Source: Lactobacillus johnsonii (GTDB lineage: Bacteria > Bacillota > Bacilli > Lactobacillales > Lactobacillaceae). Taken from it: a DNA stretch of 64,000 nt. The stretch is from positions 1,674,001-1,738,000 of the forward strand of contig NZ_CP059055.1 of NCBI RefSeq assembly GCF_014058685.1, read 5' to 3'. Positions 57,253 to 59,927 of the stretch are shown here, one piece after another. The translations under genes were made by a program, and so were the position numbers. Under the pieces are notes generated by a model. That model had not been told where the DNA came from, did not search any database, and worked only from the letters and a program-made list of their open reading frames with translations. The number at the start of each line of letters is the position of its first letter. The first letter of the stretch is position 1.

Positions 57253-57879
57253 TTATTTTAATTCTCTTACAAAAGTACGGTCAGGTACTCTAATTAAGTA
57301 GTACCTAGCTGCTGTCTTACCGGCATGCATTCTTAAACCATTCTGCCAGTTTTTCTTATAGGTAGCCGTATAAGTAGCCACATAAGCATTTTGGTAGCGT
57401 GCATCTGCTTGGACTAATTGCTTAGATGAATAAGGAATAGCTCCCGCTTGAACAGACATTGGATTTTTTCCGTCAGAAATTGTAGCATAATTACTCGTAA
57501 CAGTTACTCTGTTTCCGTTACTATAAAAAGTATATGTCTGAATTGGAGTTTTTTTATTGTCAGATTTAGCGGTGACATAGTATGAGCGTTTATTGCCCGC
57601 TGTTAAAATTAATGGTTGATATTCAATTTTACTAGATAAAACCTGTTTATTTTCTAAATCAGGATTGTAAAATAAAGTGATGCTAAACATATAGATCGCA
57701 CCGCATAAAAGAATTAAAACTTCTAAAATATCTAACAAGGTAGTTTTCCACTCAAAGCGTTTGCGATCTTTTACAATCATTATTAAGTGACGTTTTCGAA
57801 TATTTTGTACAATAAAAATTAAATATAAAACCAGAATTAACCAGGCCAAAATACCTAAAATATTCCATCCAAGTGTCAT
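57253..57879 (-). CDS. LVIS_2131-family membrane protein
   Basis: This 208-residue protein has two N-terminal membrane helices (about residues 5-27 and 50-70) and an extracytoplasmic beta-rich domain (QPLILTAGNKRSYYVTAKSD, ... TYTATYKKNWQNGLRMHAG). I recognise it as the conserved LVIS_2131 family of Lactobacillaceae, with no known function. SD GGAGG precedes the ATG. It is divergent from nrdI. Confidence 0.8.
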   Translation of the reverse strand: MTLGWNILGILAWLILVLYLIFIVQNIRKRHLIMIVKDRKRFEWKTTLLDILEVLILLCGAIYMFSITLFYNPDLENKQVLSSKIEYQPLILTAGNKRSYYVTAKSDNKKTPIQTYTFYSNGNRVTVTSNYATISDGKNPMSVQAGAIPYSSKQLVQADARYQNAYVATYTATYKKNWQNGLRMHAGKTAARYYLIRVPDRTFVRELK

Positions 57880-58021: not shown

Positions 58022-58483
58022 ATGGTAAAAATAGCTTTTTATACAATTACAGGACAAACGCAACGGTTCATAGATAAAACGGGGCTTGATGCACATCGAA
58101 TTGAGGATGCTCATCCTCAATATCAAATGAATGATAAATACATTTTGATTTTACCTTCATATCAAGATTTTATGATGGATTCCGTTGTTGATTTTTTAAC
58201 ATATAAAGATAATAAAAAAAATCTTTTAGGATTAATTGGATGTGGTAATCGTAACTTTAACGATCTTTTTGGCCAAACAGCAAAAAAGATCTCGGTTACA
58301 TTACATGTTCCTATTCTTTACTTACTAGAACTTAGTGGCAATTCGACTGACGTCAAAAATGTTCGTCAAATTGTTATGGAAGCTCGAAAAAAAGAAAAAG
58401 GTGCACAAAAAGATTTACCAATTCAAAATCCAGCTCTTAGCAATATTAGTTTCTTAAGTGACTTCAGGCAGAAAAATGAATAA
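58022..58483 (+). CDS. nrdI: NrdI flavodoxin-like protein
   Basis: This 153-residue flavodoxin-like protein has the phosphate-binding loop YTITGQTQRF, the flavin-contacting LPSYQDF segment, and GCGNRNFNDLFG and LELSGNSTDV typical of NrdI. In class Ib ribonucleotide reductases NrdI passes an oxidant (or superoxide) to NrdF to form the radical cofactor. Here the next gene, overlapping by eight bases, encodes a NrdF homologue without most metal ligands, and no nrdE or nrdH is adjacent. The C-terminal extension after residue 125 is hydrophilic. SD is weak (AGGC). Confidence 0.93.
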   Translation: MVKIAFYTITGQTQRFIDKTGLDAHRIEDAHPQYQMNDKYILILPSYQDFMMDSVVDFLTYKDNKKNLLGLIGCGNRNFNDLFGQTAKKISVTLHVPILYLLELSGNSTDVKNVRQIVMEARKKEKGAQKDLPIQNPALSNISFLSDFRQKNE

Positions 58484-59417
58484 AAAACCTTATTATAAAG
58501 CAAACAACTGGAACACTGTAGAAGAGCAAGTAGATCGTTCTGCTTGGGCGAGATTAAATGATATTGTTTACGAACCTCGTCGTGTTCCAATTTATAAAGA
58601 TCAGAAAGAGTTTCTTCATCTCCCTAAAAACGAACAAACTGTGATTTTGCACAGTTTTGGCTCTTTAACGCTCTCTTCTACTCTCCAAATGAAAGTAGCT
58701 CTATCCGAAATAAAAAAAGATGCTGAAAATTCTGAAGAAGTTGCTGTATATAATGCACTTCAATATCTAGAATCTATTAATAATAAGGCATATAGCTATG
58801 TATTAGCTGAATTCTCTGATTCTAAAAAACAAGAAGATGCCTATGAATGGGCAAACCAAAATCCTTATCTACAAAAAAAGATGAAACTTCTAAATACAGT
58901 ATATCAATCAGGAAATACTATTCAGAAAAAAGCTGCTCACGTTTTTCTATCAACTGGCCTTTATCATTCATCATTTTTTGGCCCGTTATATTTATTCGGA
59001 CAACATAAATTACCAAGAACGGCAGAATTGATTAAATATGCCCTTAGAATTACAACTTTAAATGGCATTTATACCGGAATTAAGTTTCGGCGAGATTTTT
59101 TCAAACTTTCTAAGAAAGAACAGAAAAAAGTGCATGATTGGGTATATGATCTATGTGATAATTTATATGACAATGAGCTTAGCCATATTAAACTCTTGTA
59201 TCAGAATACTGATCTTGAAGATAAGGTCGAGCATTACATTCATTACACATTAAATAAAGCTCTTATGAATTTAGGACAAGAGCCAAAATATCCAGAAAAT
59301 GTTGAGACTTTAGATCCAATTTTGACCACTGGTCTGATGGAAAGTGCAATGATTGAGGATTTCTTCTTTTACACTAATGCCCATCCCATCCTAAAAATGC
59401 GTGAAATAACAAAATAA
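58476..59417 (+). CDS. NrdF-like protein lacking five of six di-metal ligands
   Basis: This 313-residue protein aligns along its length with class Ib NrdF (NNWNTVEEQVDRSAWARL; YLQKKMKLLNTVYQS; GPLYLFGQHKL; NKALMNLGQEPKYPE). Compared with standard NrdF, LTLLDT is LTLSST (Asp to Ser68), ExxH is ESIN (Glu99 kept, His to Asn102), the third Glu is Ser159, and DEAIHG is ITTLNG (Glu to Thr193, His to Asn196). The radical Tyr is kept (Tyr106 in KAYS). The acidic C-terminal NrdE-binding tail is not evident. It cannot hold the usual Fe or Mn pair; it may be a metal-free radical protein related in idea to class Ie, or have another role. ATG at 58476 after an AGGCAG SD. Confidence 0.88.
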   Translation: MNKKPYYKANNWNTVEEQVDRSAWARLNDIVYEPRRVPIYKDQKEFLHLPKNEQTVILHSFGSLTLSSTLQMKVALSEIKKDAENSEEVAVYNALQYLESINNKAYSYVLAEFSDSKKQEDAYEWANQNPYLQKKMKLLNTVYQSGNTIQKKAAHVFLSTGLYHSSFFGPLYLFGQHKLPRTAELIKYALRITTLNGIYTGIKFRRDFFKLSKKEQKKVHDWVYDLCDNLYDNELSHIKLLYQNTDLEDKVEHYIHYTLNKALMNLGQEPKYPENVETLDPILTTGLMESAMIEDFFFYTNAHPILKMREITK

Positions 59418-59449
59418 GGAGTTAGCATAAAGGCTAGCTCCTTATTTTG
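59411..59449. terminator. Bidirectional terminator after the nrdF-like gene
   Basis: The stem AAAATAAGGAG-TAGC / GCTAGCTCCTTATTTT spans the gene end and the 3' end of the convergent gene. Confidence 0.88.
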
Positions 59450-59927
59450 TTTTCTTAGTTTTTGTTTCGGGTTTTTGATAGTTGCGAATTACTTCAATCT
59501 TTTCTTCAATTGCTTTAACTAGTAATGCACTATATTTTTCTGGATCGGCTACGATCTCATCACTTGAACCCAAGATATCAATTCGGAAGTGAGAAACATT
59601 TACATATTCTGAAATAGTTTCAAAATAAATATTTACTTCATATTCATCCTCATTGTTACAAAAGTTGCTAATTTTTTTGTAGTTAGCAAATGGAAGATTA
59701 ATGATGTTACTTTCAAGGGCAAAAGTCATTGGTCTTCTTCCACTAATGGCCAGCTGCGTTTGAATGAGGGAATCATGTTTAAAAGCTTGCACAGCTTCAC
59801 TAATCATTTTAGTTGCAATATTTTTTAATTTTGTCTTAGTTATTTCGCTATATTTAATTGTCTCAAGATCTTGAAGATAATCTTGTTCTTCAATTTTTTT
59901 AGTTATTTCTTCTTGTTTAATTTTCAC
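59442..59927 (-). CDS. Hypothetical soluble protein (161 aa)
   Basis: I do not recognise this protein. It starts at GTG with AAAGGA upstream, opens with a charged helix (KIKQEEITKKIEEQDYLQDL), has a central alpha/beta segment and ends in a Lys-rich tail (KPETKTKKTK). No membrane segment or catalytic motif is visible. It lies between nrdF-like and mazF on opposite and same strand respectively, with no operon partner. Confidence 0.7.
   Translation of the reverse strand: MKIKQEEITKKIEEQDYLQDLETIKYSEITKTKLKNIATKMISEAVQAFKHDSLIQTQLAISGRRPMTFALESNIINLPFANYKKISNFCNNEDEYEVNIYFETISEYVNVSHFRIDILGSSDEIVADPEKYSALLVKAIEEKIEVIRNYQKPETKTKKTK

Follow-up and report, generated by a model that had tools for sequence, protein, structure and literature searches.

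In the class Ib ribonucleotide reductases (RNRs) of Streptococcus sanguinis (NrdF structure 4n83), Bacillus cereus and E. coli, the small subunit NrdF carries a Mn2-tyrosyl radical site and works with NrdI as its partner. To our knowledge, NrdI and NrdF are known solely as parts of a ribonucleotide reductase. Recruitment of an R2 protein away from ribonucleotide reduction is represented by the R2-like ligand-binding oxidase (R2lox), which keeps a dimetal (Mn/Fe) site and, as far as we know, has no NrdI partner. In the B. cereus R2b-NrdI system, Lys263 and Asn267 line the oxidant channel or its NrdI-side mouth, and Tyr166 is a channel residue (PMC9462851); a glutamine of the channel is known as Gln70/Gln91 (PMC7615503). 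In class Ie enzymes, three Glu ligands are lost, the radical is formed in a metal-free and NrdI-dependent manner, and the protein works as an RNR with NrdE (PMC11846895). According to a QM/MM study of M. florum, this route needs Asp88 and Lys213 (PMC8902622). A search of the literature outside subscription journals returned no relevant publication on NrdI or NrdF in L. johnsonii or L. gasseri, nor any description of the NrdF homologue discussed below.

The locus lies in a window of Lactobacillus johnsonii DNA, that is, the whole stretch of 64,000 nucleotides that was analyzed. It consists of two genes, written here nrdI′ and nrdF′ (products NrdI′ and NrdF′), which form a stand-alone unit on the plus strand with a divergent gene for a 208-aa protein upstream. 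The features, in window positions, are the following.

58022..58483, plus strand: nrdI′, encoding an NrdI-family, flavodoxin-like protein of 153 aa, short-loop type PSYQDFMMDS (Pfam and TIGR00333)
58445..58468, plus strand: ISFLSDFR, a conserved C-terminal tail specific to NrdI′; canonical NrdI has no such tail
58476..58483, plus strand: 8-bp overlap of the nrdF′ start with the nrdI′ stop, ATGAATAA
58476..59417, plus strand: nrdF′, encoding an NrdF homologue of 313 aa without the dimetal ligand set (Pfam, phmmer, Foldseek)
58677..58679, plus strand: codon of Ser68, formerly the Asp67 ligand; Ser in 25/25 homologues
58770..58772, plus strand: codon of Glu99, the Glu98 ligand; kept in 25/25
58779..58784, plus strand: codons of Asn102-Asn103, formerly the His101 ligand and Ala; Asn103 invariant in 25/25
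58791..58793, plus strand: codon of Tyr106, the radical Tyr; kept in 25/25
58950..58952, plus strand: codon of Ser159, formerly the Glu158 ligand; S, E or N among homologues
58965..58967, plus strand: codon of His164, at the place of channel Tyr166 of B. cereus; invariant in 25/25
59049..59063, plus strand: codons of Ile192-Thr193-Thr194-Leu195-Asn196, formerly Asp-Glu-Ser-Val-His; the radical-transfer (PCET) Asp and two ligands lost
59408..59451, plus strand: strong terminator-like hairpin with a 19-pair stem and a T tail, which ends the two-gene unit

The start of nrdF′ is the ATG at 58476, with a GTG at 58458 as the alternative in the ORF listing, so that the overlap pointed out by an earlier sequence-only reading of this DNA is indeed present. 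NrdI′ matches the Pfam family Flavodoxin_NdrI (PF07972, E 2.4e-32) and scores 92.3 bits with TIGR00333, above the cut-off of 74.65, which places it in the NrdI family. NrdF′ matches Ribonuc_red_sm (Pfam, E 7e-50) and aligns over its full length with S. sanguinis NrdF 4n83 (phmmer, E 1e-71), which is also the best Foldseek match (TM 0.85) of its predicted model (pLDDT 84.5); by this model the R2 fold is predicted to be intact. With 247 bits it stays below the cut-off of 355 of the curated class Ib model TIGR04171, and with 389 bits it passes the cut-off of 320 of NCBIfam NF007183 (PRK09614.1-2, "ribonucleotide-diphosphate reductase subunit beta"). The latter model does not define the family, since ordinary class Ib NrdF proteins pass it and divergent NrdF′ sequences score below it. 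The two flanking genes (57253-57879 and 59442-59927) gave no Pfam match at E 0.01, and both are present across Lactobacillus wherever sought.

In the family alignment, the flavodoxin phosphate loop TITGQT is retained in NrdI′, as is the GNRNF segment, and the intact nrdHIEF operons of sister genera encode NrdI proteins of the same short-loop type. The family-wide form of its tail is ..GNISFLSDYR. Neither descent of this tail from NrdE nor mimicry of the C-terminal tail of NrdF was retained as an explanation, the best column-shuffle p being 0.025 (NrdF tail, three tests), which is not significant. In L. taiwanensis DSM 21401 the two genes form a single ORF of 465 aa (L066:1048-2442 and L088:5548-6942) owing to an A run that lacks one base present in its near relative G006; an AlphaFold model of this naturally fused ORF had a pTM of 0.63. 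The fusion was not accepted as proof of a NrdI′-NrdF′ complex, since the single-base difference on which it hangs, within an A run, may stem from faulty sequencing.

The metal site is where NrdF′ departs most clearly from the canonical proteins. In E. coli NrdF numbering, the replacements are D67 by S68, H101 by N102, E158 by S159, E192 by T193 and H195 by N196, whereas E98 is kept as E99, and the radical tyrosine is Tyr106; the ligand string of the window protein is thus S/E/N/S/T/N against the canonical D/E/H/E/E/H. Alignment with 4n83 and canonical NrdF proteins reproduced exactly the earlier claim that five of the six ligands are swapped and that Glu99 and Tyr106 are kept. Canonical NrdF proteins of Lactobacillaceae in the same alignment read D/E/H/Y/E/E/H in 19/19 cases, and these 19 sequences exclude the candidate explanation that the ligands are shifted yet present. 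Residue conservation was scored on 25 distinct NrdF′ sequences of 37-100% identity, and the question of whether other lactobacilli keep the same substitutions could be answered largely in the affirmative: Thr193 occurs in 24/25, beside the invariant Ser68, Glu99 and Tyr106. The other sites vary, with Asn or Ala for His101, Asn, Ser or Gly for His195, and Ser or Asn for Glu158. The last change is not universal, and since Glu158 is kept in 13/25 homologues, the ligand loss amounts to four of six family-wide and to five of six in the johnsonii type. Chance or sequencing error is excluded as the source of the pattern, because it recurs in 25 distinct homologues.

Forty-six of the 313 positions are invariant across the NrdF′ family, and 22 positions are fixed within canonical NrdF and within NrdF′ yet differ between the two groups. 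Among the group-distinguishing residues, S68, Y97, L98, N103, Y163, H164, A189 and T193 lie in the helices that formerly held the metal site. The PCET Asp is absent in 25/25 sequences, and the Tyr-bearing, R1-binding C-terminal tail is gone, with FFFYTN...KEIK in its place. The residues of the channel from NrdI to the site are kept, namely Gln71 (25/25), which corresponds to the channel Gln mentioned above (PMC7615503), and Lys261 (24/25) and Asn265 (23/25), the equivalents of B. cereus Lys263 and Asn267 (PMC9462851), although these residues could owe their conservation to structure. Taken together, the kept, newly fixed and lost residues describe a protein that has conserved its NrdI side, rebuilt its metal site and lost its R1 side.

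Compared with the class Ib systems, the pair is thus alike in the fold, the NrdI partner, the radical Tyr, Glu98, the Gln/Lys/Asn of the oxidant channel, the operon ancestry and the chromosomal site, and unlike them in having four or five of six ligands swapped and in lacking the PCET Asp, the R1-binding tail, NrdE, NrdH and NrdR boxes. Class Ie NrdF proteins (VPK and QSK types) resemble NrdF′ in their class Ib descent, in the loss of metal ligands and in the retention of NrdI and Tyr. However, the two patterns are nearly complementary: class Ie swaps E98, E158 and E192 and keeps D67, H101 and H195, as seen in the VPK sequence, whereas NrdF′ keeps E98, swaps D67, H101, E192 and H195 and has no Lys. 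The window protein has E/S/T at the three Glu positions, together with D67S, H101N and H195N, and the earlier remark that its pattern is unlike VPK or QSK therefore stands. Because the positions of Asp88 and Lys213 are Ser and Thr in NrdF′, the M. florum mechanism (PMC8902622) is not simply transferable. Furthermore, class Ie has NrdE and works as an RNR, whereas NrdF′ is without NrdE and forms a separate clade. R2lox shares with NrdF′ the recruitment of an R2 protein away from ribonucleotide reduction, but it keeps its dimetal site, whereas NrdF′ lacks that ligand set and matches class Ib models. Since the defining features tested for class Ib and class Ie both fail, NrdF′ should be filed under neither; its description as a class Ib-derived, non-RNR protein is well supported.

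Information on its origin came from synteny and from the NrdF tree. The pair occupies one syntenic site with the same flanking genes in 20/20 named records checked. Most other genera of Lactobacillaceae carry an NrdF of the same kin, and the six sister-genus genomes examined have the operon order nrdH-nrdI-nrdE-nrdF; in G068, one of the six, the intact operon has NrdR boxes and directly adjoins the counterpart of the 208-aa flanking gene. The shared site and this neighbor indicate that nrdI′-nrdF′ is the ancestral operon minus nrdH and nrdE and not a transferred cassette. In the tree, the NrdF′ sequences form a single clade (100/100) with a long stem branch, nested among the class Ib proteins of Lactobacillaceae and Streptococcus; the VPK proteins (class Ie) of L. 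kefiranofaciens and L. kitasatonis fall far away from them. A mobile origin was considered and dropped, as plasmid and phage searches gave only matches below 60% identity. Five of seven canonical operons have NrdR boxes (13-16 of 16 matches), whereas none were found upstream of 20 nrdI′ genes, where at most 12 of 16 positions matched, and the NrdR-box pattern search in the window gave nothing above chance, although the L. johnsonii genome encodes NrdR. These sequence comparisons show that the operon lost nrdH and nrdE in the Lactobacillus ancestor, and that its NrdR boxes disappeared together with the radical-transfer Asp and R1-binding tail of NrdF.

The catalytic partner is missing from most carriers. 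In the genome that contains the window (1.95 Mb, one contig), no PF02867 match, and hence no NrdE or other class I large subunit, was found; there is no second NrdF and neither nrdE nor nrdH beside the pair, so that the observation of the sequence-only reading about the neighborhood is confirmed and, for nrdE, extends to the whole genome, and a canonical nrdEF elsewhere, which it had considered, did not turn up. The only reductase of this genome is the class III NrdD. NrdE is absent from 25/27 sampled NrdF′ carriers, and in the two remaining ones it is encoded beside their own VPK NrdF. These are L. kitasatonis (G043) and L. kefiranofaciens (G020), in which a VPK class Ie NrdF, an NrdI and NrdE lie close by one another (L029/L030); two independent NrdF lineages that lost metal ligands therefore share one genome. 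Among the other carriers, some have NrdD, some NrdJ and some both, and no association of NrdF′ with the class II NrdJ was found. In two genomes that are about 99% complete (G005, and G009 of L. rodentium), the pair is present and no RNR of any class was detected. Because carriers differ in their NrdD, NrdJ and NrdEF content, NrdF′ follows no particular large subunit. More broadly, no class I, II or III large subunit was detected in ten Lactobacillus genomes that are at least 90% complete (G005, G009, G010, G014, G033, G035, G047, G049, G052 and G056), which presumably depend on external deoxynucleosides. In any carrier that has no large subunit, nrdI′-nrdF′ cannot be a ribonucleotide reductase.

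NrdF′ is present in 27/61 Lactobacillus genomes. A scan of 84,980 species (one genome each) with two peptide patterns, which very distant relatives could escape, found it in Lactobacillus only, namely in L. johnsonii, L. taiwanensis, L. hominis, L. kefiranofaciens, L. kitasatonis, L. gallinarum, L. rodentium, L. ultunensis, L. hamsteri, L. kalixensis, L. xujianguonis, L. agrestimuris and MAGs. About half of the genus lacks the pair, often with an empty site, and in the pair-less genomes the two flanking genes mostly adjoin each other; the pair is dispensable. Where it is kept, dN/dS is 0.03-0.14 for NrdF′ (15 usable pairs) and 0-0.13 for NrdI′, similar to the neighboring genes; saturation affects the larger dS values, and reliance can be placed only on the closer pairs, which give about 0.07-0.12. 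As judged from these ratios, nrdI′-nrdF′ is under strong purifying selection, in line with the earlier argument against simple decay. Damaged copies, which that reading had named as a possible sign of decay, do occur, beside many intact and selected ones; shifted ligands, which it had named as well, do not. One genome (G059, L109:672-940) has a deletion scar: the usual flanking genes enclose what is left of nrdI′ and nrdF′, in both cases a C-terminal piece, and the nrdI piece has an internal stop. In L. ultunensis, nrdF′ is a split ORF. In the draft of L. johnsonii ATCC 33200 (L091:5500-6025), nrdI′ is frameshifted by two deletions of one base each, both in A runs and perhaps artifacts of assembly, and nrdF′ is intact.

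The explanation we prefer, and consider reasonably probable, is that nrdI′-nrdF′ is what remains of an ancestral class Ib nrdHIEF operon, kept and put to a new use, with an NrdF′ that is fed by NrdI and has no dimetal site. Its general part, that of a repurposed, selected, non-RNR pair, is very likely to be correct. Since the catalytic subunit was lost and NrdF was rebuilt without the metal site, yet the pair was kept, it has probably adopted a new redox job. What this job would be is proposed tentatively: an oxidant-handling step by NrdI′ and NrdF′ is possible. NrdI′, as a flavodoxin expected to bind FMN, would dock on NrdF′ as in class Ib (FMN binding, docking and O2 reactivity are all taken from homology) and pass either electrons or an oxidant derived from O2 (superoxide or peroxide) along the channel that NrdF′ has kept. 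The end point would be a polar pocket that lacks a dimetal center and is formed by Glu99, Tyr106, Ser68, Asn103, His164 and Thr193; in it the oxidant might either be consumed or serve to oxidize Tyr106 or a small molecule, with no transfer to an R1 subunit. A doubtful extension of this proposal is that the pair is a new type of NrdI-driven enzyme without a dimetal center, whose rebuilt R2 pocket receives an O2-derived oxidant from the flavodoxin and uses it in a non-RNR reaction.

Several other explanations were weighed. The sequence-only reading implied a more extreme small subunit of the class Ie type that supplies a radical to an RNR, and such a protein would use NrdI to turn Tyr106 into a DOPA radical driving ribonucleotide reduction. 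NrdI, Tyr106 and the oxidant-channel residues are kept as this would require, and metal-free, NrdI-dependent radical formation has a precedent (PMC11846895). However, the absence of a large subunit from the genome itself and from nearly all carriers, the association of the two exceptional NrdE proteins with VPK NrdF, the lost PCET Asp and R1-binding tail, and the place of NrdF′ in the tree apart from VPK speak strongly against this claim, and Ser and Thr occupy the positions at which, by QM/MM (PMC8902622), Asp67 and a Lys at E192 are required in class Ie; we regard it as very improbable. Equally remote is a functionless, slowly decaying relic of the class Ib operon: outright loss in many relatives, the G059 scar, the split nrdF′ of L. 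ultunensis and the frameshifted nrdI of the L. johnsonii draft would fit it, but the low dN/dS, which in effect refutes it, the invariant positions, the coordinated fixed replacements, the intact two-gene unit with its terminator and the long retention at one locus all oppose it.

A contender that we consider unlikely, though deserving of attention, is that NrdF′ is a pseudoenzyme whose sole role is to bind and regulate NrdI′, the latter being the active part as a flavodoxin-type electron donor to another enzyme, for instance as activase of the anaerobic reductase. The ligand swaps abolish the canonical chemistry, the TITGQT loop and GNRNF segment of NrdI′ are kept, and NrdD is commoner in carriers (22/25 vs 8/24, Fisher p 1e-4). 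Nevertheless, this association reflects about four independent changes and vanishes on the tree, so that a tie of NrdF′ to NrdD was rejected; G002, G005 and G009 carry the pair without NrdD, the same genomes have another flavodoxin-like ORF, and the invariant interior residues S68, E99, N103, Y106 and H164 suggest a pocket that is used beyond a binding surface. A further candidate is that a new metal site, e.g., a mononuclear one formed by Glu99 and His164 with or without Glu159, makes NrdF′ an NrdI-dependent oxygenase or oxidase. An invariant His in place of the channel Tyr near the metal site, the invariance of Glu99 and the presence of Glu159 in 13/25 homologues point this way, but Glu99 is the sole universal acidic ligand, and Ser, Thr and Asn are poor ligands of iron or manganese, so that we hold this to be decidedly unlikely. 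Overall, the interpretation has moved from an odd class Ie NrdF to a repurposed NrdI-NrdF rump, of which the evolution and the non-RNR status are well supported.

Retention of the pair in many Lactobacillus species without its catalytic subunit, and with a consistently rebuilt active site, suggests recruitment to another role; if the reading as a non-RNR enzyme is true, this would be the first NrdI-NrdF pair outside RNR. The Lactobacillus pair thereby offers a natural experiment on NrdI chemistry without a dimetal site. It also corrects the annotation "RNR subunit beta", which would introduce an error into models of how gut lactobacilli make their DNA precursors.
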